Source of the DNA: a virus
DNA length: 64,000 nucleotides
IMG/VR virus record: IMGVR_UViG_3300011113_000675
Coordinates: 62,001 to 126,000 of that record
Direction: 5' to 3' (one strand)
The notes beneath the pieces were generated by a model. That model made no database searches. It worked only from the letters and a program-made list of their open reading frames with translations, and had not been told where the DNA came from. Each line of letters starts with the position of its first letter. Position 1 is the first letter of the stretch. Made by a program: the position numbers and the translations under genes. Of this stretch, positions 5,585 through 23,087 are shown in pieces.

Positions 5585-6418
5585 TCAGAATGGATGAAAT
5601 TGTCCTCTTGGTACCGACTTTTTGAAATGTAGTTTATAACCCAACTCTTCAATCATTTTTCTTCCCATTTCTATCCCGTTGAATACGTCCTCAATAACGA
5701 CATATTCTTCAGGACTATGGTAATCATAATATCCAATAGAAAAGTTGATACAAGAAAAGTCAAATTTAGTTCTCAAAGCATAAACGTCAGTATATGGGTG
5801 AACCATGTATTGCATTTCTTCTTTAATCATTCCTTCAGTCAAAACTTTATCAATTTTTTCAAAAAACTCGGTATCTCTGTCAAATAACATTTGTCCGAAA
5901 CATTTTTCAGTAATCATCCAATTTTCGGGAGCATCGAACTGAATACCATATCCAACATTTTCGAAAAATTTGGGATCGGCGGCCTTTGAACCATGACATC
6001 CAGTTTCTTCTGAAGCAAAGAATGCCGCTTTTATGTTTGGTAATTCTCTGAGTAAAGATAAACAAGCAAACACACCACATTTATCATCTCCACCAATACC
6101 TGTAGGTCTTTCGTTATCATTGAATGCTTTCAATGCTGGTTTCAATTCACCTTGAGCATTTTCTAACATCATTTCTTTGATATTGATTGTATCGATATGG
6201 TGAACTGTATCCGTGTGGGATATTACACAAGGGAAATAAAAATCTTCAGGAAGGTCAGTTGTTTCTTGTTTGGTCGCATAGATATTCAATTTGTCATCGA
6301 CATAATGTTCTATGTTGTTTTCGGTTAACCAATTAACCAAAAATTCAACCATACGATGTTCTTGGTAAGTTTTTGTGGGTACGCTCAGAACTTCTTTGAG
6401 CAAATTTATATCTTTCAT
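5585..6418 (-). CDS. M20-family metallopeptidase (peptidase T-like)
   Basis: A 277-residue protein with a conserved metal-ligand series: H68-x-D70 (SHTDTV), D111 in GIGGDDKCGV, E137-E138 in FFASEETG, a DAPENW segment and a late H in YYDYHSPEE. These fit M20/M28-type di-zinc aminopeptidases such as tripeptidase T, though the protein is shorter than bacterial PepT (about 400) and lacks much of the lid domain. A peptidase of this type would trim peptides in the cytoplasm. Its promoter is host-type and leaves no leader. Confidence 0.75.
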   Translation of the reverse strand: MKDINLLKEVLSVPTKTYQEHRMVEFLVNWLTENNIEHYVDDKLNIYATKQETTDLPEDFYFPCVISHTDTVHHIDTINIKEMMLENAQGELKPALKAFNDNERPTGIGGDDKCGVFACLSLLRELPNIKAAFFASEETGCHGSKAADPKFFENVGYGIQFDAPENWMITEKCFGQMLFDRDTEFFEKIDKVLTEGMIKEEMQYMVHPYTDVYALRTKFDFSCINFSIGYYDYHSPEEYVVIEDVFNGIEMGRKMIEELGYKLHFKKSVPRGQFHPF

Positions 6419-6422: not shown

Positions 6423-6453
6423 CAAAGATATGAATAAATTAGATTTCATCCAA
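6423..6453 (-). promoter_or_regulatory. Host-type promoter, leaderless
   Basis: On the minus strand: TTG (6453-6451), 20 nt, TATCTTTG (6430-6423), then TAGA and the ATG at 6418. The spacing of 4 nt puts the expected transcription start at the start codon. Confidence 0.65.
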
Positions 6454-7482
6454 ACTAAACAATGAAGGTTGGTATAATAAATTATAAAAATTTTGTTCAC
6501 CTAAAGACAGTGTCTTTTGTTTTAATCCTTTCGACAATGTCACAATTATTTTCATTTCAGGAAATTTGAATCCTTCGATTTTGAATCTTGTTTCTTTTTT
6601 TGAATCTTTCGGTAAAAAGTAAAATTCTTCTTGTCTGAATTTTTTGAGAATTCTTGAAGTCATGTCAGTGAAATCTTTGAAGCTAACTCCTTCCTCTTCT
6701 CCATCTTCCTGAATTGTATCCAAAATTTCAGTAAAAATTTTATTTGCAGTTCCGTTGAAACTTTCAGAATCAAATTCTTCGGGGTCTTCATACGCATAAT
6801 AATCTTCTTGCCAACCACCTGGCGCTTGTTGTCTACCAAAAATTCTTTCTAATAATTTTTTCATAGAAAGGTGAAGGTCACCTTCATTAATATACAAGGC
6901 TATTAAGTCCGCCACCTTAATTCTAAACCCATCTGTATAAGCGTCAATTCCCAACTCATCGAAATACTCATCCATCTCTTTATTCATCGCCGTCGAAAGA
7001 GATCTTTGAAATGCGTGATTTTTTTCATAGACATAATCTTCGATGACATACTTTATTTGTTTTCCGAAATTATCCATCAATACTTGGGATAACTCTTTTC
7101 TGTATTCGTCATCTGAAAAGTCGACTTTCATGGGAAGTATTGCACTAGAAATTTCAGACAATAATTCTTTGTTTTCGTCATCCAAAGTATAGTAAAAACT
7201 ATACCCTTCCATAAAGTCTTCTGTGGATGAATAGTGGTCTATAAATTCATAATCGTTATACGGAGAATTAATCACTTGATAAAACCAAACATCATCTTCC
7301 GATAATCCCAACGCCTGCAAAAATTCTTGTTGATTTTTGAACTCAACACTTATAACGCTTTGACCTGGTGTACTTCGGTCCTCTCTCATGTACGAGAATA
7401 GGTCATCCGAAGATAATAATTCATCTTTAGTTATTTGTCTTTTAGCGTAACTTCTTAAAGCCCTGAAAGTTTCATAATTCAT
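6439..7482 (-). CDS. Acidic phage protein, unknown
   Basis: The start is placed at 7482 (MNYETFRALRSYAK). The frame opens at 7500, but that start lies inside the TATTTAT box at 7490-7496. The protein of 347 residues is acidic and mostly helical, with no recognisable motif, signal peptide or membrane segment. The late-type box and the N-terminal amphipathic helix suggest a virion or assembly protein; this is inference only. Confidence 0.65.
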   Translation of the reverse strand: MNYETFRALRSYAKRQITKDELLSSDDLFSYMREDRSTPGQSVISVEFKNQQEFLQALGLSEDDVWFYQVINSPYNDYEFIDHYSSTEDFMEGYSFYYTLDDENKELLSEISSAILPMKVDFSDDEYRKELSQVLMDNFGKQIKYVIEDYVYEKNHAFQRSLSTAMNKEMDEYFDELGIDAYTDGFRIKVADLIALYINEGDLHLSMKKLLERIFGRQQAPGGWQEDYYAYEDPEEFDSESFNGTANKIFTEILDTIQEDGEEEGVSFKDFTDMTSRILKKFRQEEFYFLPKDSKKETRFKIEGFKFPEMKIIVTLSKGLKQKTLSLGEQNFYNLLYQPSLFSLDEI

Positions 7483-7489
7483 ACTACAA

Positions 7490-7496
7490 ATAAATA
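7490..7496 (-). promoter_or_regulatory. TATTTAT late-type box
   Basis: Reads GATATTTATTT on the minus strand, 7 nt before the chosen ATG at 7482. Confidence 0.5.
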
Positions 7497-7505
7497 TCAA
7501 TTCTG

Positions 7506-7536
7506 TTGGATTCGGAAATATTTATACTTACATTTG
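7506..7536 (+). promoter_or_regulatory. Host-type promoter of the tmRNA
   Basis: TTG (7506-7508), 20 nt, TACATTTG (7529-7536), a full match to the Bacteroidota consensus. The predicted start falls close to the mature tmRNA 5' end at 7546. Confidence 0.7.
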
Positions 7537-7545
7537 TACAACAAT

Positions 7546-7960
7546 GGGGATGAACGGTATTGATTGACATTGTTGGGGATAAGTGGCACGTAGTCAGAAT
7601 TCATCTATGACTTGAATCTATGGTGAAGAAAGTAAACGGCAATACTCTTGCTAAGATGTCTGCTTTAGGTTTGACTAGAGAAGCATCTGTTGTAACTGCT
7701 TAAGAAGTAGATACAACGTCAGGTCGATTGGGCATATAACCTAGGAACAGAAGCCCTCCAAGGTGGATACCACCCAAAGCGTATCAAAAGGTCACGTTCA
7801 GAGGGCTACCTTATTTCAAGTGAACTCGACACAGTTGTTGGTAACGATGTCAAAATAGGAACCATCTATTTCGGAAGGTATGAAAAACCTTGACCTAAAC
7901 GTGTAGGCATTTATTGTCAAAGTGAGCAAGACGCGAGTTCGAATCTCGCCATCTCCACCA
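7546..7960 (+). ncRNA. ssrA: Phage-encoded tmRNA (transfer-messenger RNA)
   Basis: The 5' end GGGGATG pairs with CATCTCC near the 3' end (7 bp, one G-U), followed by ACCA, giving a tRNA-like acceptor with encoded CCA. A T-arm GCGAG-TTCGAAT-CTCGC lies directly before it. The 5' side has the short D-like loop typical of tmRNA, and the 415-nt length suits a tmRNA with several pseudoknots. The likely tag frame runs to a TAA at 7701-7703 and ends in ASVVTA; an ATG at 7620 is in frame and the preceding in-frame stop is TGA, so the tag is at most about 27 residues. The ending differs from the ALAA that bacterial tags usually carry. The resume codon cannot be fixed by eye. tmRNA rescues stalled ribosomes with SmpB; no smpB is seen here. 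Confidence 0.88.
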
Positions 7961-7964
7961 AATA

Positions 7965-7993
7965 AAAAAGGGGTCAAAATGACCCCTTTTTTT
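7965..7993. terminator. Bidirectional terminator
   Basis: Stem GGGGTCA/TGACCCC with flanking A and T runs; it ends the tmRNA and the convergent lipoprotein gene. Confidence 0.8.
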
Positions 7994-9190
7994 TTAGTTT
8001 CCTTTTGATGGAAATCTTGTCCATCCATTTACCCAAACAGGTTTATCTAATTCAGGAATTACCACATCAATTTCTTTATTACTTTTTGATAATGCTAATG
8101 TTTTAAGTTGTTCACTTGTTAGAATTGTGGTTGCTCTACTGATGAAATTCAGAGTTGGATTGAATGTTCCGACTGAATTGTTTTCAAAGACAGATACACC
8201 ATCTTTTACGAACTGTGCGGTTTCATTACTTTCCAAACTTAATCCCCCTTTCATCCATCCCCAAACTACACTGTTCTTCATTGTGAATTGGGTTGCTCTC
8301 CTAAATCTCATCCCCAAGTTGTGGTTTGCTAAAGCTGTAGATACATTTGGTCCAACCAAAATCATATTGTAAAGTTTTGGGTGGGTATATGGTTGTGCTG
8401 AAGATCCTGTTCCGTCATTATCACATTCTACACCATTTCCAGCGTCACCACTGTCGACAAATTGTGGGTCTCTTTTTGCAACTCCATTTGTTATTGTTCC
8501 TGTATAACCAAAGTCAAAATCGAAATCATCATCTGCGGTTGCGTATGCATAAAGATTTTTACCATTTACGGTTCCACCAAAGAATTCGAATGCGTCATCG
8601 TTTGCGTATATGGTTTGAACATTCTCGAGTATGGTTCCATTTCCAACTCCACCTAATGTAAGAGCGTTTATTTCTGAGTTCGGCATCGCGGCAACTCCAG
8701 CATATTCAATTCTGACATATCTAAGAACTCCACTATTGTCTGAATCATCTGTTCCACCATAAGGTCTTCCGATTCCACCTTCAATTGTAGGTTCAGAGGA
8801 ACGGTTTGTCTTCGCTCTACCTAAAATTACTATACCACCCCAATCACCAGGAGATCGTTGTCCCTCAGGTCTCCCTGACGTAAATACGATAGGTTTGGTT
8901 GGGGTTCCCTCAGCAATTATTTGGGAACCTCTTTCAATACATAAAGCACCTTTTTCTGCAACATCAGAAACTATGGTTGTGCCTGGTTGAATGATAAGTT
9001 TTGCTCCATCGGTTACATAAACATATCCTTTAAGTGTCCAAACTTTGTCCGAGGTCAAAGTTATTGTGGTGTTGATGTTTCCTGTCAATGTTGTTGTTTG
9101 TGGAACATTGATTGGTCCTTCACCTCCACCTAAGTCTCTATCACAACTGAAGAGTCCTAATGCAATCATAATTGTTAATAGTTTTTTCAT
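7994..9190 (-). CDS. Lipoprotein partner of the TonB receptor, beta-helix-like
   Basis: A 398-residue protein with a lipoprotein signal (MKKLLTIMIALGLFSC, cysteine at 16) and a Gly-rich tether. The body holds short beta repeats such as GAKLIIQPGTTIV, I-x-x-GTPTKPIVFTSG and GDWGGIVILGRAKTN, resembling right-handed beta-helix surface proteins found beside TonB receptors in Bacteroidota. Its ATG overlaps the receptor stop (ATGA), so the two are coupled. It is presumably anchored in the outer membrane and may help bind the ligand of the receptor. Ligand unknown. A gene of this kind is bacterial in character and unexpected in a phage. Confidence 0.8.
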   Translation of the reverse strand: MKKLLTIMIALGLFSCDRDLGGGEGPINVPQTTTLTGNINTTITLTSDKVWTLKGYVYVTDGAKLIIQPGTTIVSDVAEKGALCIERGSQIIAEGTPTKPIVFTSGRPEGQRSPGDWGGIVILGRAKTNRSSEPTIEGGIGRPYGGTDDSDNSGVLRYVRIEYAGVAAMPNSEINALTLGGVGNGTILENVQTIYANDDAFEFFGGTVNGKNLYAYATADDDFDFDFGYTGTITNGVAKRDPQFVDSGDAGNGVECDNDGTGSSAQPYTHPKLYNMILVGPNVSTALANHNLGMRFRRATQFTMKNSVVWGWMKGGLSLESNETAQFVKDGVSVFENNSVGTFNPTLNFISRATTILTSEQLKTLALSKSNKEIDVVIPELDKPVWVNGWTRFPSKGN

Positions 9191-11670
9191 AAATTTAGAT
9201 TTAAGGTTAATGAAACTATTGTTTCGTTATTTGTGTTTATTAAATTACGGTTTGAAATTCTTTGATAGTTTATTGATGGTTGTGCAAAAATGTCTGATAT
9301 TGCCAACTTCAACTCTCCCTTTGGAAGTTTATGTAAGAATGTAATGTCCAAAACATCTCTACTATTTTCGAATATGTCAGGATATCCTTGGAAACCGACA
9401 GCGGATATTCTTTCACCAATTCTATTGTAGGTTAGATTAAGTGTATTATTTTTCTTATTGATGTTCACACCTGAATTAACAACATAGTTTGATTGTCCTT
9501 GTAATTGTCTTTTTACACCATTCACATCAACCTCAGAATTCATAACTGAAGCATTTGTGTAAAAATCAAACCATCCATTTATTCTTTTTCTAACTTCCAT
9601 TTCAACACCATATACAATCGCAGATTCAGGATTTGCATAAGTTAGAAGTAAGTTGGATGGAACTGACCCGTCAGCAACAACTTGTTCGATTGGGTTTATG
9701 AAGTTTTTACCAAAGAATGAAAGGGAAATATTTTCTGTGTTTGAAGGATATAATTCGTATTTCAGATCAACATTGTATATGTCGGTTTTTTTCAAGTTGG
9801 AGTTTCCTAATATTTGTGCGTTTCTAACAAAATCATAATACGCGAAGTTTGCGACTTCTCTGAACTCTGGTCTTGCCAAGGTCTTACTCAAAGAAAATCT
9901 ATATTTGGTTTTCTCCAAGTTGTAAGAAAGGTTCAATGATGGAAGAATGTCCAAATATGTTCTATTAACTTTTACCTTTTGACCACTAAAATCTGCAGTT
10001 TCAACATCAAACAAGTTGTATTCACCTCTTACACCTGTATTGATTTTCCATTTTCCGATCTCGTTCTCATACATCGTATAAAGATTACCCAAATCAAAGT
10101 CAGCGGTGTATCTATCTGTATTGTTGGTTATTTCATCCAATAAATCTGTTGTTTGATATCTGAAAACTCTTGCATTGAACCCTCGAATCTTTTTCAAATA
10201 ACCTCCACCCACTTCGAATTTACCCAAATCCCTTCTTATGTTTCCATTGAATGAGTTTTCATCCATAACACTCCAAAATCTATAGGTGTCTCTCCACGCC
10301 GTTGCGAATGGTTCATTTACACCCAATGATTTGGTAATAGGGTTAATTCTATAGTCAGGTTGTTCTCTGAAGATGTAATTATATCCGAAATTGAAATCAA
10401 AAGTTTCAATATTACCATCAACCTGTGAGTTGATTACCACGTTATTGATATGGTTTGACGCATTACTCAACACATCTTGAACATTGTCAAAGTTCTGACC
10501 TTCTCTTGTTAGGTATGAACTCTCCTTTTGAAAGTTTGCCAATGTTTTCCAACTATATTTGTTTTTACCCAAATAAGTTAAATTCAATAATCCATTTGTG
10601 GAGAATCTCTGTGTATATAATTTATCGTTATAGTCATACGCCAATTCAGTGGAAGATTGATAATCCTTTCTCTCAATGTTGTTGAGAGTATATGAGTTTC
10701 TTACTGTTGAACTAAATAAGGAACTCCATTTTCCTTTTACATAACCAAATGAAAGTCCTCCATTCAAGTTTGGAATAGATTGAAAACTGTTTTCGGATGG
10801 GTTTCCTATCTGTTTTGTGAATAATCTTTTATCACCATTACCACTTATTCTGTATTTGTAAGTTGAAGGAAAGGTTGATGGAAATGGTATTGATTTCACC
10901 ATTCTGAAATCTCTGAGAGTTGATACGGATCCGAAACCTGTTCCAAAACTGACATCAAAGAAGTTGTCAGATACTTCCTTTGTTGATACTTGAACCAATC
11001 CTCCACTCCAATCACCAAGTTGGTTTGCCGAAAATGATTTGGAAACCATAATATTATCAATCAAAGAAGTTGGGATAATATCAAATGAGAATGCCCGTCT
11101 ATCAGGTTCTGTGGAGGGTAAAGGTGTTTGATTTAACATTGCGGAATTATATCTATCGGCGAGTCCTCGAACCAAAACAAATTTGTCATTCTGAATTGTG
11201 ACACCACTTACTCGTTTTAATGCATCACCCAAATTTCTATCGGGGGTTTTCTTGATGAATTCAATTGATAGTCCATCGGAGACAACAATATTATTTCTAA
11301 TGGATTTCATCACTGAAATATCCGTGACCTTTTGGGCCGTCCCTCGAACCAAAACCTCATTTAATTCTGTATCGGTTTGTTCGAAAATAATATCTATATT
11401 TGTATCCGAGGTTAGATCAATGGTCGTTACGAAATCTTTGTAACCGATGTAAGTTCCTTTAACCTGATATTCATCGGAAACCAAATCAATCTCATATTGA
11501 GCATTTTCATTGGATATTGTAGTGAAAACTTGTCCCTCTTTATTCTGAAATGTTATGTGTGCGAAATATATTTCTTCACTATTTGATTTTGTCTTACCTT
11601 GAAGTTTAACTTTTTCTTGAGAGAAGACACTCAACGGAAAAAGTAACATAAAAATAAAATATTTTGTCAT
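9187..11670 (-). CDS. TonB-dependent outer-membrane receptor
   Basis: An intact 827-residue receptor. A signal peptide (ending VFSQ) is followed by a CarboxypepD_reg-like domain (about 20-105), a plug with the features VKRVSGVTIQNDKFVLVRGL and DRYNSAMLNQTPLPS, and a long beta-barrel rich in alternating aromatic residues that ends LTLNLNL. TonB receptors import ligands such as siderophores, glycans or phosphorylated compounds using host TonB/ExbBD. Nothing here looks broken. Candidate roles in a phage are nutrient uptake during infection or masking of a receptor from competing phages. Its composition resembles its neighbours, and tmRNA and phage genes flank it, which argues against an assembly join. 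Confidence 0.9.
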   Translation of the reverse strand: MTKYFIFMLLFPLSVFSQEKVKLQGKTKSNSEEIYFAHITFQNKEGQVFTTISNENAQYEIDLVSDEYQVKGTYIGYKDFVTTIDLTSDTNIDIIFEQTDTELNEVLVRGTAQKVTDISVMKSIRNNIVVSDGLSIEFIKKTPDRNLGDALKRVSGVTIQNDKFVLVRGLADRYNSAMLNQTPLPSTEPDRRAFSFDIIPTSLIDNIMVSKSFSANQLGDWSGGLVQVSTKEVSDNFFDVSFGTGFGSVSTLRDFRMVKSIPFPSTFPSTYKYRISGNGDKRLFTKQIGNPSENSFQSIPNLNGGLSFGYVKGKWSSLFSSTVRNSYTLNNIERKDYQSSTELAYDYNDKLYTQRFSTNGLLNLTYLGKNKYSWKTLANFQKESSYLTREGQNFDNVQDVLSNASNHINNVVINSQVDGNIETFDFNFGYNYIFREQPDYRINPITKSLGVNEPFATAWRDTYRFWSVMDENSFNGNIRRDLGKFEVGGGYLKKIRGFNARVFRYQTTDLLDEITNNTDRYTADFDLGNLYTMYENEIGKWKINTGVRGEYNLFDVETADFSGQKVKVNRTYLDILPSLNLSYNLEKTKYRFSLSKTLARPEFREVANFAYYDFVRNAQILGNSNLKKTDIYNVDLKYELYPSNTENISLSFFGKNFINPIEQVVADGSVPSNLLLTYANPESAIVYGVEMEVRKRINGWFDFYTNASVMNSEVDVNGVKRQLQGQSNYVVNSGVNINKKNNTLNLTYNRIGERISAVGFQGYPDIFENSRDVLDITFLHKLPKGELKLAISDIFAQPSINYQRISNRNLINTNNETIVSLTLNLNL

Positions 11671-11744
11671 TGCCTGATTTTTTCAACAATAATTACGAGA
11701 GGGTCTCTTCGAAAACTCAAATTCAAAATTATCAAATGATTATG

Positions 11745-11774
11745 TTGTTGTTAAGAAAAAAAATATTAACTTTG
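11745..11774 (+). promoter_or_regulatory. Host-type promoter of the first repeat paralog
   Basis: TTG (11745-11747), 19 nt, TAACTTTG (11767-11774). The ATG follows at 11798. Confidence 0.65.
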
Positions 11775-11797
11775 TGAATTGAAAATTAAAAACCGAT

Positions 11798-12244
11798 ATG
11801 AACGAAAGATTAAAACGGATTATATTCAAGAAGTTAAACCAAGATTTAGGTCATGCTGAAATCATTGTGGATGATAATAAATCCATTTGGTTCATCGATC
11901 GTGCAAATAAGTATTGGTATTTGGAACTGAGAAGTTCAGGGACTCTATGGTGGAGATACTCATTCTTCCGTGATTTTTTTCCGTTGTTTGGCATGGAACG
12001 GCTAGAATATGAATCCGTCATAGCGGAATGGGTGGAAGAGGTACTCAAACGCGGGGTGTCTTCAACTCTACAAAGCAAAATCGCCTACCAGAATCAGGTG
12101 GAAGAGGTTCTCAAACGCGAGGTGTCCTCAACAAATTCCTATGAACATTTACCATTTGAAGTAGAAAAAGTTCTGTCTCTCAAAGCTGGTGTCAGAGAAT
12201 GTAAAATGAAAATTAAAAAATTCTCAAAAAAAATAATAAGTTAA
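11798..12244 (+). CDS. Repeat paralog family protein 1
   Basis: A 148-residue member of a three-gene family in this window (also 52494-52961 and 60257-60982). The shared N-terminal domain of about 85 residues has IWFIDRANKYWY-[LF]-EL, GxLWWRY and an EWVE end. It is followed by imperfect repeats VEEVLKRGVSST, VEEVLKREVSST and VEKVLSLK. At the DNA level the first two repeats are almost identical, which suggests recent duplication. No known family was recognised. The W-F-I-D-R-A-N-K-Y-W-Y block suggests a small beta-sheet fold. Confidence 0.7.
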   Translation: MNERLKRIIFKKLNQDLGHAEIIVDDNKSIWFIDRANKYWYLELRSSGTLWWRYSFFRDFFPLFGMERLEYESVIAEWVEEVLKRGVSSTLQSKIAYQNQVEEVLKREVSSTNSYEHLPFEVEKVLSLKAGVRECKMKIKKFSKKIIS

Positions 12245-12245
12245 A

Positions 12246-12274
12246 ATCCCTCGAATATTCGGGGGATTTTTTTT
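12246..12274 (+). terminator. Terminator after paralog 1
   Basis: Imperfect stem ATCCCTCGAA/TTCGGGGGAT followed by eight T. Its T-run merges into the next promoter box. Confidence 0.65.
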
Positions 12275-12281
12275 ATCTTTG
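12274..12281 (+). promoter_or_regulatory. Host-type -7 box, leaderless gene
   Basis: TATCTTTG, then TAGA, then the ATG at 12286. The string TATCTTTGTAGAATG is identical to the promoter/start of the M20 peptidase gene. No clear TTG at -33 is seen. Confidence 0.5.
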
Positions 12282-12285
12282 TAGA

Positions 12286-12633
12286 ATGGATATAGCCAAA
12301 ATATTACTCGCCACCCTGTTTATGATTTTAGGTCAAATTGGGTCTTTTATGCAATTACAGGGTTCAATCAAATATGGTTGGTCAGAGAAATACCTTTGGT
12401 TACTTTTACTCTCAGGTATTCCAATTAGTTGGTTATATATCAAGTCAGTGAATCTATACGTACAAGGATTCGGTGGTCAAATTTGGCCAAGTAGATTGGT
12501 TGGATTTGCATTAGGTGTAGTTGTTTTCACAATATTATCTTCAATTCTTTTTCAAGAACATATGAACTTAAAAACTGTTACTTGTTTGATTCTCGCGTTC
12601 ACAATCGTTCTAATACAATTATTTTGGAAATGA
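12286..12633 (+). CDS. Four-helix membrane protein
   Basis: A 115-residue protein with four hydrophobic stretches (about 5-22, 37-55, 70-90, 97-113) and conserved WPSRLVGF before the third. It resembles a half-size drug/metabolite-type transporter but is too short to assign. The stop overlaps the next ATG (ATGA), so it is coupled to the HAD gene. Confidence 0.65.
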   Translation: MDIAKILLATLFMILGQIGSFMQLQGSIKYGWSEKYLWLLLLSGIPISWLYIKSVNLYVQGFGGQIWPSRLVGFALGVVVFTILSSILFQEHMNLKTVTCLILAFTIVLIQLFWK

Positions 12634-15236: not shown

Positions 15237-15237
15237 G

Positions 15238-15312
15238 TTGGGATAGGTGGACTCGAACCACCAACCTTTCGCGTATCAGACGAAAGCTCTAAACCAATTG
15301 AGCTATATCCCA
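15238..15312 (-). tRNA. tRNA-Ile (GAT)
   Basis: Acceptor TGGGATA/TATCCCA, D-stem GCTC/GAGC, anticodon loop CTGATAC (anticodon GAT), T-loop TTCGAGT. CCA is not encoded. Confidence 0.9.
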
Positions 15313-15318
15313 TTGTTG

Positions 15319-15477
15319 CTGTAAGGGAAGGAGTCGAACCTTCACGAGGAGATTCAATTGATAACACAACGCTTGCAAGCTGGTGGTCTACCCCATATTA
15401 TCAATCTATTTCTTTATCCCCGCCCTCGAGACAGGAGGGTGTGTATGCCAAGTTCTAGAACATTTCACCACCTTACA
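15319..15477 (-). ncRNA. tRNA-like RNA with inserted D-loop and giant variable arm (anticodon GTC)
   Basis: On the minus strand a 7-bp acceptor TGTAAGG/CCTTACA closes a 158-nt element. It holds a D-stem GTG/CAC, an anticodon stem CCCTC/GAGGG with loop CTGTCTC, and a T-arm GAAGG-TTCGACT-CCTTC with discriminator G. The D-loop carries an extra palindrome GTTCTAGAAC. The variable region is 79 nt and can fold through GGGGA/TCTCC and TTGATAA/TTATCAA. The anticodon and G73 suggest Asp, but the D-arm resembles Leu class II tRNAs, and position 37 is T. It could be a modified tRNA, a tRNA with an insertion, or a tRNA-derived RNA. No group I intron core was seen. Confidence 0.5.
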
Positions 15478-15491
15478 ATATAAACTTGAAG

Positions 15492-15576
15492 CAGAGAGTA
15501 TTGGATTCGAACCAATGCATCCCTTTCGAGATGACAGATTAGCAATCTGCTCCTTTAACCACTCAGGCAACTCTCT
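15492..15576 (-). tRNA. tRNA-Ser (GCT)
   Basis: Acceptor AGAGAGT/ACTCTCT, anticodon stem GCAGA/TCTGT with loop TTGCTAA, long variable arm, T-loop TTCGAAT, discriminator G. Confidence 0.9.
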
Positions 15577-15580
15577 GTAG

Positions 15581-15651
15581 ATGTCTCATCAGGATTCGAA
15601 CCTGAAAAAACTGAACCAAAATCAGTTGTGTTACCGTTACACCATGAGACA
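15581..15651 (-). tRNA. tRNA-Gln (TTG)
   Basis: Acceptor TGTCTCA/TGAGACA, anticodon stem ACTGA/TCAGT with loop TTTTGGT, T-loop TTCGAAT. Confidence 0.88.
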
Positions 15652-15654
15652 AAG

Positions 15655-16056
15655 TTAATACAAACTTTCCTTTTTTACAACCCCCCAATCATATCCACAA
15701 TCTCTATCTAATCTGAAATAGTAATGACCACCAGTAGAATATGCCCTGAACTTTAACATCCAAAAGATTGTATTTTCTAATTCGGAGATTATAGATTCAT
15801 TACCACTCCAACCACAAGTATGGAGTTCAATCATACCATCTTCTTGATTGTATGCATCTGATCCATAGTACCATATTTGTTTGATGTAGTCTAACAGATC
15901 GGTATAATCAGTATTATCGAAAAACTTACCATATACTAACTCACCATCAATCTTTTCACTACCCCAATTTCGGATATACTTTAACGCTTCGTCAGTGGGA
16001 TATCCATCCTCATCTAATAGGTGAAACGGATACAGATAATCTAGTTTATTTTCCAT
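15655..16056 (-). CDS. Conserved phage-type protein, unknown
   Basis: 133 residues, acidic, with conserved-looking HTCGWSGNE and YFRLDRDCGYDWG. No signal or membrane segment. It sits between the Tyr and Gln tRNA genes and shares their transcript. Function not recognised. Confidence 0.65.
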   Translation of the reverse strand: MENKLDYLYPFHLLDEDGYPTDEALKYIRNWGSEKIDGELVYGKFFDNTDYTDLLDYIKQIWYYGSDAYNQEDGMIELHTCGWSGNESIISELENTIFWMLKFRAYSTGGHYYFRLDRDCGYDWGVVKKESLY

Positions 16057-16067
16057 AATTTAATTTT

Positions 16068-16152
16068 TGGTGGGAACGATAGGACTCGAACCTATGAACT
16101 CCTAAGAGAGGAGATTTACAGTCTCCGGCAATTGCCGCTATGCGACGTTCCC
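16068..16152 (-). tRNA. tRNA-Tyr (GTA), CCA encoded
   Basis: Acceptor GGGAACG/CGTTCCC followed by ACCA; anticodon stem GGAGA/TCTCC with loop CTGTAAA; long variable arm; T-loop TTCGAGT. Confidence 0.9.
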
Positions 16153-16293
16153 AAGGTTAGGAAAGGAGAAGATGGTTCCGTGGACAACTCCTTTTACGAT
16201 TGGCTTTACTACGATGATTCCAAACTCCAAATGTACCACCTCCATCATCAGGTTAACATACATTCCTTCCCCAATCAACCTTTATATCTTATA

Positions 16294-16710
16294 CTACTTG
16301 TTTAACAACCAAGACGAAGATTGAATCTTATCACCAAGTCCATCAATCAACTTGATACCCCACCAATCACATACCTGTCTCTCAGGGATTGAATTATTGT
16401 TTTGGTCCCCACCATTGGCGAAAATAAGTTCGTTTGTTGGATCCTCTCCAGAATGAATCAAACCGAGTGTCTTACATACAGTTCTATCCGTATCAATGGA
16501 TAGAAATGCTTTGTCAACCATTTTTAGGTTTTCGATAATGAACATTCTTTCATCTTCGTCTTGGAACTCTTTACTACCTTTCAACTCTCTCTGTTTGTCG
16601 TTATTTACAATTACATAGAGTTTATCCCCATGTTCTTTGGCTTTATTGAAATATTCAATATGACCTTTATGAACAGGATTAAAATATCCGCTTACAATTA
16701 CAATTTTCAT
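16294..16710 (-). CDS. Cytidylyltransferase-like nucleotidyltransferase
   Basis: 138 residues starting IVIVSGYFNPVHKGH, the HxGH nucleotide-binding motif (H14-K-G-H17) of the TagD/RfaE2 family. These enzymes attach AMP or CMP to a phosphorylated alcohol or sugar. A second family member lies at 61404. Its ATG overlaps the stop of the small upstream gene by 4 nt. The substrate is unknown. Confidence 0.75.
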   Translation of the reverse strand: MKIVIVSGYFNPVHKGHIEYFNKAKEHGDKLYVIVNNDKQRELKGSKEFQDEDERMFIIENLKMVDKAFLSIDTDRTVCKTLGLIHSGEDPTNELIFANGGDQNNNSIPERQVCDWWGIKLIDGLGDKIQSSSWLLNK

Positions 16711-16895
16711 TTCGTTTCGTAGGTTAAAGTTTCTAATTCTAGTTCACTTTCATAGAAATATGGACATGCCCAAACAGGTTTATCACATTTGAGTTTAACC
16801 ATTCTTCCTTTGTTGTATCCAAGAGAAATGACTATTGCCCATCCTGAATACTTTGTTTTAACTCTGTCTCCAACTTTTAATTCGCTAAATGTCAT
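16707..16895 (-). CDS. Small SH3-like protein
   Basis: 62 residues with a beta-barrel pattern (ELKVGDRVKTKYSGWAIVISLG), like small KOW/SH3-type phage proteins. Overlaps both neighbours (4 nt and 11 nt), so it is translationally coupled. Confidence 0.55.
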   Translation of the reverse strand: MTFSELKVGDRVKTKYSGWAIVISLGYNKGRMVKLKCDKPVWACPYFYESELELETLTYETK

Positions 16896-17193
16896 CTTCT
16901 ACAGTATCGAGTTCAAAGTTACTAAATTTTAATCCCCACATCAAAGAAATCATTGACATTTGTTGTTCAGCCATTTTAGCATACATACGAAGTTCTTTCA
17001 TAAGGTATTTTTTACCCCATTTTTTCCATTCTTCGTTTTGTTCCATAGTCATAGTCCAATCAGTATACCAACTATCCTTACGGTCCTTGACATCGTCAAA
17101 TGTTACGGGATGACCTGCGATCTCGAACATCTTGTTTATCATATCGACAACCATTTTTTGTTTTTTCTGTTCTTTAGATAATCTCGGTTTCAT
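16885..17193 (-). CDS. Helical protein, unknown
   Basis: 102 residues, basic N-terminus (MKPRLSKEQKKQK), helical, with several Trp and Met. It begins immediately after the Cys tRNA gene and opens a three-gene overlapping unit. No family recognised. Confidence 0.6.
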   Translation of the reverse strand: MKPRLSKEQKKQKMVVDMINKMFEIAGHPVTFDDVKDRKDSWYTDWTMTMEQNEEWKKWGKKYLMKELRMYAKMAEQQMSMISLMWGLKFSNFELDTVEDDI

Positions 17194-17209
17194 AATTTTT
17201 ATTGTTTAG

Positions 17210-17283
17210 AGGTCAAGAAGGGATTCGAACCCTTGGATACTTGTTTTGCAGACAAGCCCCTTAAGCCACTTGGGTACTTGACC
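17210..17283 (-). tRNA. tRNA-Cys (GCA)
   Basis: Acceptor GGTCAAG/CTTGACC, anticodon stem CTTGT/ACAAG with loop CTGCAAA, T-loop TTCGAAT. Confidence 0.88.
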
Positions 17284-17289
17284 GTTTTG

Positions 17290-17361
17290 TGTGACCGAAG
17301 AGAATCGAACTCTTACATGAAGTGCCACAAACTTCCGCCCTACCATTAGGCCACAGCCACC
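17290..17361 (-). tRNA. tRNA-His (GTG)
   Basis: Anticodon stem GAAGT/ACTTC with loop TTGTGGC, T-loop TTCGATT; acceptor GTGGCTG/CGGTCAC with two wobble pairs and an extra 5' G at -1. Confidence 0.85.
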
Positions 17362-17376
17362 ATATAATCTTAATGT

Positions 17377-17444
17377 AAGTCAGGACGGGTTTCTAACCCG
17401 CTCTTCAGTTAATCACTGCGTGCTGCCATTTACACCACCTGACT
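17377..17444 (-). tRNA. Degenerate tRNA-like gene, isotype unresolved
   Basis: Acceptor AGTCAGG/CCTGACT and D-stem GTG/CAC are sound. The anticodon arm has only CAGT/ACTG around a 5-nt loop GATTA, and the T-loop is TTAGAAA instead of TTCRANN. It may be a decayed tRNA or a tRNA mimic. The acceptor is identical to that of the neighbouring element. Confidence 0.4.
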
Positions 17445-17510
17445 AATTTTTAGATTTCTAAAACTCATCCCTAACGGGGTAAAGAAACTCCATCTTATTT
17501 GTTTTTTGCG

Positions 17511-17601
17511 TAGTCAGGACAGGATTCGAACCTGTAACTTTTGTCTTTTGGTTCCGAAAATCGGATTACTCACCAACACGTTACCCTTGCGTCACCTGAC
17601 T
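17511..17601 (-). tRNA. tRNA-like gene with enlarged anticodon arm
   Basis: Acceptor AGTCAGG/CCTGACT, D-stem ACG/CGT and T-arm ACAGG-TTCGAAT-CCTGT are regular. Between them a stem TTGGT/ACCAA closes a 19-nt region that itself forms TCCGA/TCGGA around TTT. Without the 6 nt GAGTAA the two stems would stack into one 10-bp helix. The anticodon cannot be read with confidence; Lys (TTT) is one option. Confidence 0.45.
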
Positions 17602-17614
17602 ATAAAGTGAATGG

Positions 17615-17688
17615 TACTCCGTACGGGACTCGAACCCGTAAGCTCTCCCGTGAAAGGGGAGTGTCCTAACCAATTAGACGAACGGAGC
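17615..17688 (-). tRNA. tRNA-Glu (TTC)
   Basis: Acceptor GCTCCGT/ACGGAGT (one wobble), anticodon stem CTCCC/GGGAG with loop CTTTCAC, T-loop TTCGAGT. Confidence 0.9.
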
Positions 17689-17700
17689 TTGTTTGTCTTA

Positions 17701-17729
17701 CAAAGATACTACAATATTTCAAAGAACAA
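17701..17729 (-). promoter_or_regulatory. Host-type promoter of a tRNA operon
   Basis: Minus strand: TTG (17729-17727), 18 nt, TATCTTTG (17708-17701), just upstream of tRNA-Glu. It can drive the minus-strand genes below it. Confidence 0.6.
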
Positions 17730-17746
17730 AAGAAGTCATAAAAAAA

Positions 17747-17773
17747 CCCCGAACTTTTTTTAAGAGTTCGGGG
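17747..17773 (-). terminator. Hairpin terminator
   Basis: Stem CCCCGAACT/AGTTCGGGG with a T-run on the minus strand. Confidence 0.65.
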
Positions 17774-17986
17774 TTTGAAAAATTAGTTTTTACAAGTAAA
17801 AAAAATTTCTATCTTATGACATCCGAACTACAGGGCAAATAGGTTCATAACAACAATTTTCTTGTTGATTATTACTGATAATATTATGACTTGTAGTTCT
17901 CATTGTTCTATAATTACTTCAAATGTATGAAATGTTTTAATTTTGTCAAATGTTTTTTATGGATAGAACTTTTAATTCTATGCATA

Positions 17987-17993
17987 TATTTAT
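17987..17993 (+). promoter_or_regulatory. TATTTAT box deciding the HNH start
   Basis: Ends 4 nt before the ATG at 17998; the longer frame from 17950 would start upstream of it. Confidence 0.5.
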
Positions 17994-17997
17994 TATT

Positions 17998-18369
17998 ATG
18001 GAAAAAAAAGTTTGTTCAACCTGCAATGAAGAAAAACCATTGACTGATTTTTATTTGCGCAATTCAAGAAATAATAAACCTTATGATAGATGTAAAAAAT
18101 GTTTTAACCGTTATTGTGGTGACCGATGGATCACTAAAAAGATTAACGCAATAATTTACAAAGGTTCTAAATGCCTTGATTGCTTTTTATCCTATCCTAA
18201 TGAACCATATGTAATTTTTGATTTTCATCATCGTGAGCCAAACGAAAAAGATTTCGATTGGGGTAAATTAAGATTGAAATCTGATAATACCATAAAGTCC
18301 GAATTAGATAAATGTGATTTACTATGTTCAAATTGTCATAGAAAACGACATCATTTATCTGATTTGTAG
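17998..18369 (+). CDS. HNH endonuclease, probably free-standing homing type
   Basis: 123 residues. An N-terminal zinc cluster (CSTCNEEKPLTDFY, CKKC) is followed by an HNH core FDFHHRE ... CDLLCSNCHRKRHH. It is the only plus-strand gene inside the minus-strand tRNA cluster, and its stop codon overlaps the 3' end of tRNA-Arg, a typical position for a mobile endonuclease gene in phage tRNA arrays. Confidence 0.75.
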   Translation: MEKKVCSTCNEEKPLTDFYLRNSRNNKPYDRCKKCFNRYCGDRWITKKINAIIYKGSKCLDCFLSYPNEPYVIFDFHHREPNEKDFDWGKLRLKSDNTIKSELDKCDLLCSNCHRKRHHLSDL

Positions 18370-18438
18370 CCCCACCAAGATTCGAACTTGGAAATCTTCT
18401 TTAGAAGAGAAGCGGTATATCCCTTTACCTATGGAGCC
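18367..18438 (-). tRNA. tRNA-Arg (TCT)
   Basis: Acceptor GGCTCCA/TGGGGCT (two wobbles), D-stem GGT/ACC, anticodon stem CTTCT/AGAAG with loop CTTCTAA, T-arm CCAAG-TTCGAAT-CTTGG. The 3' end overlaps the HNH stop codon on the other strand. Confidence 0.87.
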
Positions 18439-18454
18439 TTAACCGATTATTGAA

Positions 18455-18619
18455 TTACTTCAATAAATCAATCTTTTTTGCGACTTCTTCGGCTTCCGCC
18501 ATAAGTTTGTCCGATTGGGTTCTGTTGGAATGAGAAGCCTTATAAGCTTCTTCCATCAACTTCTTATAAGTTTCTTGTAACCTTTCCTTTTCAGTTTTTT
18601 TCTTGAATATCCCGAACAT
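18455..18619 (-). CDS. Lacal_2735-like small protein
   Basis: A 54-residue frame starting MFGIFKKKTEKERLQ, helical and charged throughout. It matches the general form of the small Lacal_2735 family of Bacteroidota (MFG-x-FKKK start, Y-x-x-L-x-x-E, SNR-x-x-SD). Function unknown. A homolog otherwise found in host-type genomes supports the Bacteroidota assignment. Confidence 0.65.
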   Translation of the reverse strand: MFGIFKKKTEKERLQETYKKLMEEAYKASHSNRTQSDKLMAEAEEVAKKIDLLK

Positions 18620-18662
18620 AATTTAGAATTAACACTATCGTCTTTGAAAGTTTATTTAACGT

Positions 18663-18908
18663 TTATGCCTGACGGCTAGATAATTTTCTTTCAAGTTTAT
18701 CAAGACGTGAATCCATTGTTCGATAAATGTCATCGACAATTCTATCACGATCTCTCAGTTGATTTTCAATTTCTCTTGCAAGAAATTGGTGAATCTGTTG
18801 TATTTCTTCTTTTTGTTTATTCACCCTAACAAAAGCCATAACCGCAACCACCGCAACTGCAATGACCACAATTATAGACATTCCTAAAATAAATGATATT
18901 AAATCCAT
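18663..18908 (-). CDS. Single-pass membrane protein with coiled coil
   Basis: 81 residues: a hydrophobic N-terminal helix (about 4-27) followed by a charged helix with heptad-like spacing (IENQLRDRDRIVDDIYRTMDSRLDKLERKL cannot form a globular fold; it is cited only by its ends IENQL and LERKL). Orientation and role unknown. Confidence 0.6.
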   Translation of the reverse strand: MDLISFILGMSIIVVIAVAVVAVMAFVRVNKQKEEIQQIHQFLAREIENQLRDRDRIVDDIYRTMDSRLDKLERKLSSRQA

Positions 18909-18946
18909 ATGATTTTCTCCTTTATTTCAAAGAACGATAGTGTTTG

Positions 18947-19030
18947 TATCAGGAGAGGGAATCGAACCCTCACTCGCGTTGGCGAACAACATTTTAAGTG
19001 TTGCGTGTCTACCTATTCCACCACCCCGAC
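18947..19030 (-). tRNA. tRNA-Leu (TAA)
   Basis: Class II tRNA with anticodon stem CAACA/TGTTG and loop CTTAAAA, long variable arm, T-arm GAGGG-TTCGATT-CCCTC. Acceptor GTCGGGG/TCCTGAT contains three wobble pairs. Confidence 0.88.
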
Positions 19031-19039
19031 ATTGTTTTA

Positions 19040-19069
19040 CAAATGTAATCGATTTTCAGATACTTTCAA
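19040..19069 (-). promoter_or_regulatory. Host-type promoter of tRNA-Leu
   Basis: Minus strand: TTG (19069-19067), 19 nt, TACATTTG (19047-19040), 9 nt before the tRNA. It lies across the end of the methyltransferase gene. Confidence 0.65.
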
Positions 19070-19706
19070 CCCGATGTTTCATGATTTCACAATACTTCTC
19101 GTCGACATCATAACTAACAGAATTAAACCCCAACTCTTTGGCAACTTTACTGGTGGTTCCACTTCCACCAAAAACGTCAATGATTGTTTGGTTTGGTTCT
19201 GCAGTTGTTAAAATAATTCTTCTGATGACTTCCTCAGGTATCTGACAAGGGTGTTCGGTCTTTTCCTTACTCACATTCTTTACCTGATTGATTTCCCACC
19301 AATCATAAAGTTTTGCTCCCGTCTTTCCTTCGGCAATTCGTTGTTGAATCCTTTTATCTTTGAGATTTTTGTATGGTTGTCTAACCTTTCTAAAATCAGG
19401 CTTACATCCCCACCATGAAATTAAACGACTTTGTTTCCCTGTGTTTGAATTATACACCCAACAAACAACCTGTTCACACTTGGCCTTTATTGCTTTTGGT
19501 AACAAGTTGATTGTTTCTTCGGGGTAATGAATGATTACACAAGGGGTTGGGATTTTGGATAATAGTTCAATATAATCCTCTTCACTTAATTTGTCTTTGT
19601 ATTCGTTGTACGAATATTCTTGATTATAAGGTGGGTCTGTAATTGTTAATCCTTTTGGTATGACGCAGTTTCTGAAGTCGTCATTGATAATTGTTGTTTC
19701 CACCAT
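19056..19706 (-). CDS. Orphan DNA methyltransferase (N4-C/N6-A, beta class)
   Basis: 216 residues. The catalytic motif DPPYN lies at 24-28 and the SAM-binding motif DVFGGSGTT near 180, i.e. motif IV before motif I as in beta-class enzymes; HPCQIPEEVIRRII precedes motif I. No restriction endonuclease is adjacent, so it is probably an orphan that protects phage DNA or marks it. Target sequence cannot be read. Confidence 0.85.
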   Translation of the reverse strand: MVETTIINDDFRNCVIPKGLTITDPPYNQEYSYNEYKDKLSEEDYIELLSKIPTPCVIIHYPEETINLLPKAIKAKCEQVVCWVYNSNTGKQSRLISWWGCKPDFRKVRQPYKNLKDKRIQQRIAEGKTGAKLYDWWEINQVKNVSKEKTEHPCQIPEEVIRRIILTTAEPNQTIIDVFGGSGTTSKVAKELGFNSVSYDVDEKYCEIMKHRVESI

Positions 19707-19723
19707 AAAATTAATTAATCACC

Positions 19724-20422
19724 TTAAAATTCTTCTTCCCAAATTGTATTGGACTTGTCTATAATAGTGTTGTATGTGTGTTTTAATATAACAGTTTTTT
19801 CCTTAAAATCAAACTCAAATTCTCCTTGAGATCCTTCATTAATTTCCCAACCTCCGAAGTTTTCTTCTAATTCTTTATAACACCAATTTTCTATTTCGGT
19901 TGGTACAGGTTCACCATTATCGAAATCCGACTCGATATATCCACTATCTCCCCCTCCGTTATACTTCAAGGTCATGTAACCATCTTCAGGAATTTCCATA
20001 TCTTCAAAGACCCCTTTTTCTTCCCACTCTTCAATCATATCATCGTATTCAACTCCACTCGTGTCTCCTTCATCATTATAACTATAGATGTGAGTTAAAG
20101 ATATTTCTTTTTTTACAGAATCAATTGTAATTTCGAATCGTTGATAATCCATGTAAGCACTATCAGGCAATTCTGTTTCTAAATCTTCATCTTCAAAATA
20201 AAAGATAATTCTTTTCAGTATTGGTACAAGTCCGTCTGGAATTTCTGCAACATAATTATTGTCAAAGTGGGTTGGAAAGTCCTCATCACTGTATGAAATT
20301 TGTTCATGATCTGGTTCCATTTCGAATTGAATATCTCCATATTTCATTCCCAATGAAGCAAGATATCTCGCTACTCTCCCTAAATATTTTTTTTCTTCTG
20401 GTAATAGTATATTTTCTGCCAT
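19724..20422 (-). CDS. Acidic conserved phage protein
   Basis: The start is set at 20422 (MAENILLPEEKKYLG), 4 nt after the TATTTAT box at 20427-20433; a longer frame to 20473 would include it. The protein of 232 residues is strongly acidic, with a conserved-looking C-terminal block YNGGGDSGYIESDF ... YKELEENFGGWE. No known domain was recognised. Confidence 0.65.
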   Translation of the reverse strand: MAENILLPEEKKYLGRVARYLASLGMKYGDIQFEMEPDHEQISYSDEDFPTHFDNNYVAEIPDGLVPILKRIIFYFEDEDLETELPDSAYMDYQRFEITIDSVKKEISLTHIYSYNDEGDTSGVEYDDMIEEWEEKGVFEDMEIPEDGYMTLKYNGGGDSGYIESDFDNGEPVPTEIENWCYKELEENFGGWEINEGSQGEFEFDFKEKTVILKHTYNTIIDKSNTIWEEEF

Positions 20423-20426
20423 ACAA

Positions 20427-20433
20427 ATAAATA
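20427..20433 (-). promoter_or_regulatory. TATTTAT late-type box
   Basis: Minus strand; ends 4 nt before the ATG at 20422 and fixes that start. Confidence 0.5.
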
Positions 20434-20787: not shown

Positions 20788-20796
20788 AATAAAACT

Positions 20797-21513: not shown

Positions 21514-21532
21514 ATTAGTTTTTACAATTATG

Positions 21533-21617
21533 CAGAGGAGGACGGATTCGAACCCCCGTTACCTTTCAGTAAAATAGTTTTCAAGACTACCGCCATAAAC
21601 CACTCGGCCACTCCTCT
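21533..21617 (-). tRNA. tRNA-Ser (TGA)
   Basis: Acceptor AGAGGAG/CTCCTCT, anticodon stem GTAGT/ACTAT with loop CTTGAAA, long variable arm, T-loop TTCGAAT with one mismatch in the T-stem. Confidence 0.87.
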
Positions 21618-22110: not shown

Positions 22111-22114
22111 ACAT

Positions 22115-22121
22115 ATAAATA
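22115..22121 (-). promoter_or_regulatory. TATTTAT late-type box
   Basis: Minus strand; 4 nt before the ATG at 22110, excluding the longer frame to 22158. Confidence 0.5.
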
Positions 22122-22311: not shown

Positions 22312-22319
22312 TTTTTCTA

Positions 22320-23048: not shown

Positions 23049-23087
23049 GATTGTTTTGTTTTATTGTGTTTTTATCGAGTTTCAAAG

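Follow-up and report, generated by a model that had tools for sequence, protein, structure and literature searches.

A TonB-dependent receptor and lipoprotein pair with a predicted Pho box in large phages of Bacteroidota

In Flavobacterium johnsoniae, the TonB-dependent transporter (TBDT) Fjoh_0545 and its partner Fjoh_0546, a lipoprotein of the FII type, are encoded in the PUSIV/phoBR operon and are strongly induced upon phosphate depletion only (PMC8115612). Among phages, control of host phosphorus acquisition has so far been shown mainly in marine cyanophages, whose pstS and phoA genes are placed under the host PhoBR system (PMC10976474). A TonB-dependent receptor (TBDR), described as SusC-like and read as serving carbohydrate uptake, has been noted in the megaphages Mar_Mega_1 and LR745206; the available part of that account describes no lipoprotein, Pho box or slot (PMC9723777). 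Beyond this report, our literature search for phage TBDRs linked with phosphate returned nothing. The remark in the first-pass annotation that no phage TBDR is well described was thus nearly right, the two megaphages being the exception. Freshwater Bacteroidetes phages carrying bS21 reach 331 kb, and TonB receptors are mentioned nowhere in the paper that describes them (PMC9723584). The phage analysed here resembles them in its bS21 gene and in the large genomes of its relatives, yet it does encode such a receptor. We studied a 64,000-nucleotide stretch of its record (the window). What appears to be new is the phosphate link and the slot in which the receptor lies, phage TBDRs themselves having been noted earlier.

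The receptor-lipoprotein pair and its phage

The pair consists of two intact, full-length genes coupled through an ATGA, the start of the lipoprotein gene overlapping the stop of the receptor gene, as had been noticed at first reading:

7994..9190, minus strand: surface-type lipoprotein of 398 aa, FII-like (Fjoh_0546 type), right-handed beta-helix-like (ORF call; AlphaFold2)
9187..11670, minus strand: TBDR of 827 aa (ORF call; Pfam; AlphaFold2 and Foldseek)

Both products also appear to carry the expected export signals: the receptor begins with MTKYFIFMLLFPLSVFSQ, a Sec-type signal as judged by eye, and the lipoprotein sequence has an LFSC lipobox with the cysteine at position 16. In the receptor, the signal peptide is followed by a CarboxypepD_reg-like N-domain, a plug and a beta-barrel, with a TonB-box-like ELNEVLVRG (recognized by eye) between N-domain and plug. 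Plug and OMP_b-brl_3 score above the Pfam cut-off and CarbopepD_reg_2 just under it; the AlphaFold2 model (pLDDT 86) is a TBDT barrel with Foldseek matches in the PDB down to E 1.5e-23. Domains and modelled fold together point to a TonB-dependent transporter. Many phage TBDRs are of a 750-aa form that has lost the CarboxypepD_reg domain.

The lipoprotein model (pLDDT 90) is beta-helix-like. Foldseek aligns it weakly with pectate lyases and tailspikes, and no solved structural relative was found at E <= 1. SusCD and BtuBG-type complexes likewise combine a barrel transporter with a surface lipoprotein, and the fold search with the phage TBDR returned BtuB-BtuG (8bmx) as one of its matches; by sequence, however, the phage lipoprotein belongs to neither SusD nor BtuG. 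SusD identity was ruled out by the absence of a SusD Pfam match in any partner lipoprotein or homolog tested and by a beta-helix-like rather than alpha-helical model, which would place the pair outside the SusCD systems.

The record that harbors the pair is 142 kb long and encodes terminase, major head protein, portal and DNA polymerase; bS21 is encoded next to portal but on the other strand, and PhoH, a Clp-type protease, thymidylate synthase and dUTPase are present too, as in the described freshwater bS21 phages (PMC9723584). Its relatives measure 309-326 kb. The locus belongs to a genuine large Bacteroidota phage of lake type. Since the source is metagenomic and both genes look bacterial, one could envision that contamination or a chimeric assembly had put bacterial DNA into a viral bin. 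This explanation, named in the first-pass annotation as what would refute its observation and given a negligible probability here, is rejected because independent contigs (L002-L005) run colinear through the locus at 77-93% nucleotide identity and share identical junctions. Phage structural genes are present on the same contigs as the pair; among the records tested, a capsid gene was found in 17 of 50 and a portal gene in 18 of 35. The closest bacterial pair found is 59% (TBDR) and about 70% (lipoprotein) identical, and the genomes searched yielded no full-length bacterial TBDR above 59%.

Nor is the pair a singleton. Sought in other phages, it proved common in this phage group: the receptor is encoded on at least 116 viral contigs, and the lipoprotein adjoins it in all 69 viral loci that could be checked. 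For the TBDR, dN/dS is about 0.06-0.17, and 73 viral homologs contain no internal stop; the phage pair is kept under purifying selection. These selection data already largely refute the notion that the genes are a functionless passenger, host DNA captured recently. Their patchy presence, with 34 of 52 complete slots lacking any large ORF, would suit a passenger, but carriage by more than 100 viral contigs, constant adjacency, dN/dS well below 1 and retention across several genomic contexts with a conserved operator would not, and we regard this origin as very improbable. As befits an auxiliary gene for phosphorus acquisition, the pair lies in a true phage genome and has been retained there.

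Phosphorus genes around bacterial relatives and the predicted Pho box

The tie to Fjoh_0545/0546 runs through Pfam architecture and through synteny via locus L232, not through direct alignment. The set PF07715, PF13715 and PF14905 is common to Fjoh_0545 and the phage TBDR, and both lipoproteins are partners of pectin-lyase-fold type, on the phage side according to AlphaFold2 with weak Foldseek support; unlike the phage genes, the Flavobacterium pair is chromosomal (PMC8115612). L232 has the order GT(PF04101)-PhoR-PhoB-TBDR-lipoprotein, as in Fjoh_0541 and 0543-0546, and its pair is about 30% (TBDR) and 40% (lipoprotein) identical to the phage pair. By architecture and model, the latter would be a PUSIV-type Pho-regulon TBDT with an FII lipoprotein.

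In Aquirufa, the pair heads a phosphate/phosphonate island, with a phosphatase-superfamily enzyme, PitA, PhnZ, a PhnX-like protein and alkaline phosphatase encoded downstream. Elsewhere its bacterial neighbors include PstS, PhoR, PhoB, PiT, PhoU and Porin_O_P. Phosphorus-specific genes lie close to the pair in 9 of 42 bacterial loci compared with 0 of 20 control regions, and in about 40 of the 42 the TBDT is paired directly with the lipoprotein. By its neighbors and by the published induction of Fjoh_0545/0546, the bacterial pair belongs to phosphorus acquisition and to the Pho regulon, and the phage pair appears to derive from such a phosphorus-acquisition gene. The Aquirufa pair nests within the viral clade; therefore, the last transfer may have gone either way.

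A putative control element precedes the phage receptor gene:

11721..11754, minus strand: Pho-box-like 11-bp direct repeats TTAACAACAACA / TAATCATTTGA / TAATTTTGAAT, at -51 to -84 from the TBDR ATG

The repeat consensus is TTAAYAATTTnnTTAAYAT (also written TTAAYAATTnnTTAAYAT). Spacing of 11 bp occurs in 33 of 56 upstream regions, other spacings in 8 at most, the harmonic of 22 excepted. An 11-bp period is that of the cyanobacterial Pho box. The half-site logic PyTTAAPyPyT/A of the cyanophage Pho box is likewise the same (PMC10976474). Box scores above 10 were obtained for 35 of 54 phage TBDRs but for only 19 of 1847 other phage ORFs. A model whose training left out this phage group places 11721-11754 first among the sites of the whole 142 kb record (16.5; the runner-up, at 16.2, precedes an unrelated gene). 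A phage-only model applied to bacteria ranks the upstream regions of PstS, porin, PiT and PhoB highest, with 0 of 313 control ORFs above 10. The 2.5 Mb Aquirufa genome has five exact sites, every one of them before Pho genes or flanked by them: one at PhoB, one at PiT, two at another PiT and one in the divergent region at the TBDR. About one-third of phage TBDR upstream regions have no recognizable box (for example, in the contexts around L041, L053 and L038). The Bacteroidota -33/-7 promoter was considered as well and found unsupported, with full matches before 0 of 65 viral TBDRs and a -7 element before 11 against 7.8 expected. We predict that the repeat is a Pho box and that it controls the phage pair.

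These findings bear on the proposal, made for the megaphage TBDR in the available part of its description, that such receptors import glycans for the infection (PMC9723777). The architecture of a Bacteroidota TBDR with a lipoprotein, the resemblance of the lipoprotein model to pectate-lyase beta-helices and the earlier SusC annotation would all accommodate a general SusCD-like carbohydrate uptake. The partner is not SusD, however, a Pho box lies upstream, and the bacterial neighbors are phosphorus genes, carbohydrate-enzyme families being absent among the most frequent neighbors listed. We consider glycan import quite improbable. The megaphage receptor, too, resides in a large phage, and in LR745206 a related lipoprotein lies alongside; its pair differs from that of the window in gene order, which is reversed, and in sequence (26% and 41% identity).

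A proposed role in phosphorus acquisition

The first-pass annotation had suggested that the phage might raise nutrient uptake during infection. This idea stands, and it narrows to phosphorus because the bacterial orthologs are assigned to the Pho regulon and a predicted Pho box lies upstream of the phage genes. We think it likely that the locus works as an auxiliary metabolic cassette for acquiring phosphorus. When the host is starved of phosphate, its phosphorylated PhoB would bind the 11-bp repeats and turn the operon on. The lipoprotein would be exported to the cell surface, bind a ligand containing phosphorus (an organic phosphate, a phosphonate or phosphate bound to a polymer) and pass it to the TBDR, and host TonB-ExbBD would power import into the periplasm. 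There, host phosphatases and transporters might free the phosphate and bring it in, to supply phage DNA synthesis as the host's mRNA breaks down. Because an intact uptake system carries the host's phosphate-scavenging switch sequence, phages with the pair probably keep the infected, phosphate-starved cell feeding, as ocean cyanophages do through a different protein.

By analogy, the best reading of the pair is as phosphate-regulated auxiliary metabolic genes, an outer-membrane counterpart of cyanophage pstS. In both cases, host-derived phosphorus-acquisition genes are carried by large phages and exchanged between them (PMC10976474). The host phylum differs, as does the product: periplasmic PstS there, an outer-membrane TBDR with a surface lipoprotein here. 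PstS was rejected as a companion gene, being found in 0 of 31 phage records. If the proposed role is correct, phage manipulation of host phosphorus acquisition would shift outwards, with the outer membrane taking the place of the periplasm, and would take in the phages of Bacteroidota, a phylum that does much of the breakdown of dissolved organic matter in lakes. For this phylum, TTAAYAATTnnTTAAYAT offers a testable Pho-box model.

A variable slot beside the tmRNA

The pair occupies a region whose content varies among relatives:

5585..6418, minus strand: M20/M42-like peptidase c13, conserved phage gene, left flank (Pfam)
6439..7500, minus strand: conserved phage gene c12, 353 aa, left flank (cluster 12; slot survey)
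7546..7960, plus strand: tmRNA, left border (Rfam RF00023, 76.6 bits)
7961..12285, no strand: variable cargo slot, from the tmRNA to an EamA-like ORF (survey of relatives)
7970..7995, no strand: terminator-like hairpin GGGGTCAAAATGACCCC with a T-run between tmRNA and lipoprotein stop, possibly used in both directions (inspection only)
12286..12633, plus strand: small EamA-like membrane protein, right flank (ORF call; family named by eye, no profile)

A survey anchored on c13 (515 relatives in viral contigs) covered 52 complete slots, of which 34 have no large ORF and 18 are filled. The filled ones hold the pair, in either orientation, an Oar-type TBDR or another TBDR; all large genes seen there are receptors, and most slot TBDRs carry a predicted Pho box. 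The patchiness recalls cyanophage pstS/phoA, present in about one-third of genomes; pstS there lacks conserved synteny (PMC10976474), whereas a slot dedicated to exchange is found in one group of the present relatives. The Oar-type TBDRs of the slot and their bacterial homologs (13 of 16 copies) also carry the predicted box, and neighborhood analysis gave no link between Oar-type TBDRs and phosphorus genes in bacteria. The data suggest that FII-linked and Oar-type TBDRs, both poorly understood, act in phosphorus uptake.

TBDRs are common phage receptors. The pair might accordingly mask, compete with or replace the receptors of other phages, in line with the suggestion at first reading that it occupies the surface against them; three unrelated TBDR families in one slot would fit surface-antigen switching, and bS21 phages encode surface-polysaccharide genes too (PMC9723584). 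Superinfection exclusion of this kind predicts neither a Pho box, which it leaves unexplained, nor descent from Pho-regulon bacterial pairs, and the lipoprotein, a partner conserved in bacteria, is not a small blocker of the Llp type. We found no positive evidence for this role and judge it improbable. Turning back to phosphorus acquisition, we lean towards a dedicated receptor slot in which related phages would swap the pair for unrelated Pho-regulon TBDRs (TBDR with FII lipoprotein, Oar-type, classical TBDR), most of them behind a Pho box that host PhoB would recognize, tailoring outer-membrane phosphorus import to host and lake. With such an all-receptor slot, one can ask in a natural setting which pressures select for nutrient receptors in phage genomes.

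Both flanks proposed at first reading were borne out. The tmRNA, missed in an ARAGORN run, adjoins the slot also in L009, L018, L055, L056 and L264. On the other side of the pair, ORF 11798-12244 has paralogs in the record at 50% and 24% identity, in keeping with a phage repeat family.

The receptor-lipoprotein pair and its phage context

The following features make up the locus, where the ORF call places the TonB-dependent receptor (TBDR) and lipoprotein genes exactly as in the first-pass annotation, with the ATGA overlap joining them:

7546-7960, plus strand: tmRNA
7994-9190, minus strand: lipoprotein, 398 aa
9187-11670, minus strand: TBDR, 827 aa

The flanks are likewise as that annotation described them. 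On one side lies the tmRNA, followed by a terminator-like hairpin immediately ahead of the lipoprotein stop; on the other, the proposed phage repeat paralog, a 148-aa ORF (11798-12244), has two paralogs in the record (122257-122577 and 114506-114946; 50% and 24% identity). The receptor carries Plug and OMP_b-brl_3 Pfam domains above cut-off and CarbopepD_reg_2 slightly under it, and its structure model is that of a TBDT (pLDDT 86), with fold matches including PhuR, Cir, PfeA and BtuB-BtuG. The lipoprotein model is of high confidence (pLDDT 90) and resembles a right-handed beta-helix; Foldseek gave only weak pectate-lyase and tailspike matches for it, and a search for a solved sequence relative found none.

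The record (142,443 bases, the window being 62001-126000) encodes terminase, major head protein, portal, DNA polymerase, PhoH, dUTPase, thymidylate synthase, head maturation protease and a Clp-type ATPase. Outside the window, a bS21 gene (record 53237-53383, plus strand) adjoins the portal gene on the opposite strand, the hallmark layout in bS21-encoding Bacteroidetes phages from freshwater lakes, which reach 331 kb (PMC9723584); this places the phage in that group. Since its IMG/VR relatives reach 309-326 kb, the record probably represents part of a ~320 kb genome. A chimeric join, raised at the outset as what could refute the presence of the pair in a phage, is not borne out: four independent contigs (L002-L005) are colinear over the locus at 77-93% nucleotide identity, ruling out a private chimera. 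Elsewhere in the window, twelve tRNA genes cluster at 15237-23161 with small ORFs in between. A tRNA-SeC called by ARAGORN at 47829-47921 (minus strand) is probably false, as Rfam lacks it.

Spread, selection and bacterial relatives

Among viral contigs, TBDR relatives are encoded in 116 stretches and lipoprotein relatives in 136. The same pair, which the first-pass annotation suggested seeking in other phages, is common there: the lipoprotein directly adjoins the receptor gene in 69/69 viral TBDR loci reaching far enough to test. Among the records tested, 17/50 contained a major head protein and 18/35 a portal; since the contigs are fragmentary, both figures are minimum values. The dN/dS ratio for the window against its nearest relatives is about 0.05-0.1, with a median over all usable pairs of 0.17-0.18, and the TBDR homologues compared have no internal stops. 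The CarboxypepD_reg N-domain is absent from many viral TBDRs (L028-L035, L041-L043, L053-L067 and similar stretches), which have a 750-aa form that retains the signal peptide, a TonB-box-like segment, plug and barrel.

A tree built on 115 TBDRs groups 73 viral sequences with two Aquirufa genomes in a single clade (SH-aLRT 100). Aquirufa is nested there as sister to ten viral sequences (SH-aLRT 96), and other Bacteroidota fall outside. At least nine changes of genomic context along the tree indicate that the pair has moved among phage contexts. The nearest bacterial match (59% identity) is rare, occurring in 3/38 genomes of its genus.

In bacteria, the pair is a phosphorus system. The two genes are adjacent in about 40 of 42 Bacteroidota loci sampled, and the lipoprotein family occurs in 237/395 of the Bacteroidota genomes sampled. 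After the pair, the Aquirufa antheringensis locus continues with genes for a phosphatase-superfamily enzyme, PitA, a PhnZ-family phosphonate oxygenase, a TIGR03364 oxidoreductase, a PhnX-like hydrolase and alkaline phosphatase. Phosphorus-specific genes lie near 9/42 bacterial loci versus 0/20 control regions of the same genomes, a modest difference taken alone; PstS (7), PhoR and PhoB are among the commonest neighbour families, and PiT, PhoU and a phosphate porin also occur. In one bacterial locus (L232) the genes run glycosyltransferase (PF04101)-PhoR-PhoB-TBDR-lipoprotein, the order of the published F. johnsoniae phoBR locus except for OprP (Fjoh_0542) in the latter. There, strong induction, restricted to phosphate depletion, is published for Fjoh_0545, with three Pfam domains identical in kind to those of the phage TBDR, and for Fjoh_0546, lipoprotein FII with a pectin-lyase fold (PMC8115612).

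A candidate Pho box upstream of the receptor

An 11-bp direct repeat precedes the phage receptor gene. TAAY.A-N5-TAAY occurs at exactly this spacing in 33/56 non-redundant viral TBDR upstreams, and at any other in at most 8, save the harmonic 22 (17). With a weight matrix built on 31 phage sites, 35/54 viral TBDR upstreams scored >10 versus 19/1847 other phage ORFs (Fisher p ~7e-47); no lipoprotein gene did (0/48). Because the viral sites scored include the training set, the matrix was tested independently in two ways. With the window's group left out of training, it still ranked 11714-11745 top among all sites on either strand of the 142 kb record (16.5); the second site (16.2; record 54116-54147, minus strand) directly precedes an unrelated 232-aa gene adjoining portal (L162:13411-14109, a stretch outside the window). 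The full matrix found 38 sites against 0.7 in dinucleotide shuffles. Among bacterial upstreams, the phage-trained matrix scored highest PstS (24.3), Porin_O_P (22.2), PiT (21.5, 19.2, 16.1), PhoB (19.0, 15.8, 11.1) and TBDRs, with 0/313 control ORFs >10. The 2.5 Mb A. antheringensis genome holds just five exact matches to TTAAYAATTNNNTAAYAT:

ahead of a PhoB-like regulator: one
ahead of a second PiT (identified via the homologous L221): two in tandem
ahead of PitA: one
within the TBDR divergent region: one

In the same genomic region, a site with one mismatch precedes a metallophosphoesterase. Cyanobacterial Pho-box repeats are also spaced at 11 bp. Their published consensus, PyTTAAPyPyT/A, has the same half-site as the phage repeat (PMC10976474). 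From these sequence patterns we conclude that the repeat is the putative Pho box of these bacteria, also carried by the phage. As about one third of viral TBDR upstreams lack a recognisable box, some phages may express the receptor by read-through or from phage promoters. Another conserved stretch, TAATTATTG(T/G)TG, lies ~15-35 bp before many viral TBDR ATGs in differing contexts (window 11684-11696, for example) and is possibly a phage promoter or translation element.

Most likely, the phage sustains outer-membrane phosphorus import in a host starved of phosphate, with host PhoBR providing the switch. On sequence grounds this is supported by the intact genes, their setting in a phage, selection, homology to a Pho-regulon pair and the predicted operator. 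Host PhoB would bind the operator, the receptor system would be displayed at the surface and import a presumably phosphorus-bearing ligand driven by TonB, and continued import would benefit the phage. Cyanophages are known to carry phosphorus genes controlled by PhoBR (PMC10976474). The initial impression that no phage TBDR is well described is nearly right, a SusC-like one having been noted in two megaphages and read as carbohydrate-related (PMC9723777). Our literature search turned up no account of Pho-regulated receptors carried by phages, of phages with the pair, or of a receptor slot.

A variable slot beside the tmRNA

A close relative of the window's phage (L264), matching it at 90% nucleotide identity over the left flank and 85% over the right, has no such pair; in its place stands a different, Oar-type TBDR of 1082 aa (PF25183 and PF13620). 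We surveyed this slot from the flanking peptidase in the best 80 of 515 related contigs, 52 with a complete slot; counts include near-identical contigs. The pair occupies 8/52 (3 in the window's orientation, 5 inverted), an Oar-type TBDR 9/52 and a classical TBDR 1/52 (L327), while 34/52 have no ORF of ≥600 aa; every ORF of that size in the 52 slots is a TBDR, and a single phage (L284) has both receptor types. The slot is hypervariable (window 6439-12633; L284-L363), the pair appearing in either orientation between corresponding flanks.

The box precedes other receptors too: 5/11 slot Oar-type upstreams score >10, that of L327 scores 13.4, and 13/16 bacterial Oar-type copies (L270-L283 loci) carry it. 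The common trait of the slot cargo is thus predicted Pho-box control, not protein family. The bacterial Oar homologues do not neighbour phosphorus genes, lying instead by housekeeping genes such as a selD-like one; orphan Bacteroidota Oar-type TBDRs may be unrecognised Pho-regulon members. The tmRNA border of the slot invites the idea of an integration site. Between the putative Pho box and the ATG of slot Oar genes L290, L320, L326 and L355, roughly -75 to -30 from the ATG, lies a conserved hairpin, TCCCGnnnnCGGGATTTTTT, which may be the terminator of the tmRNA or an attenuating leader.
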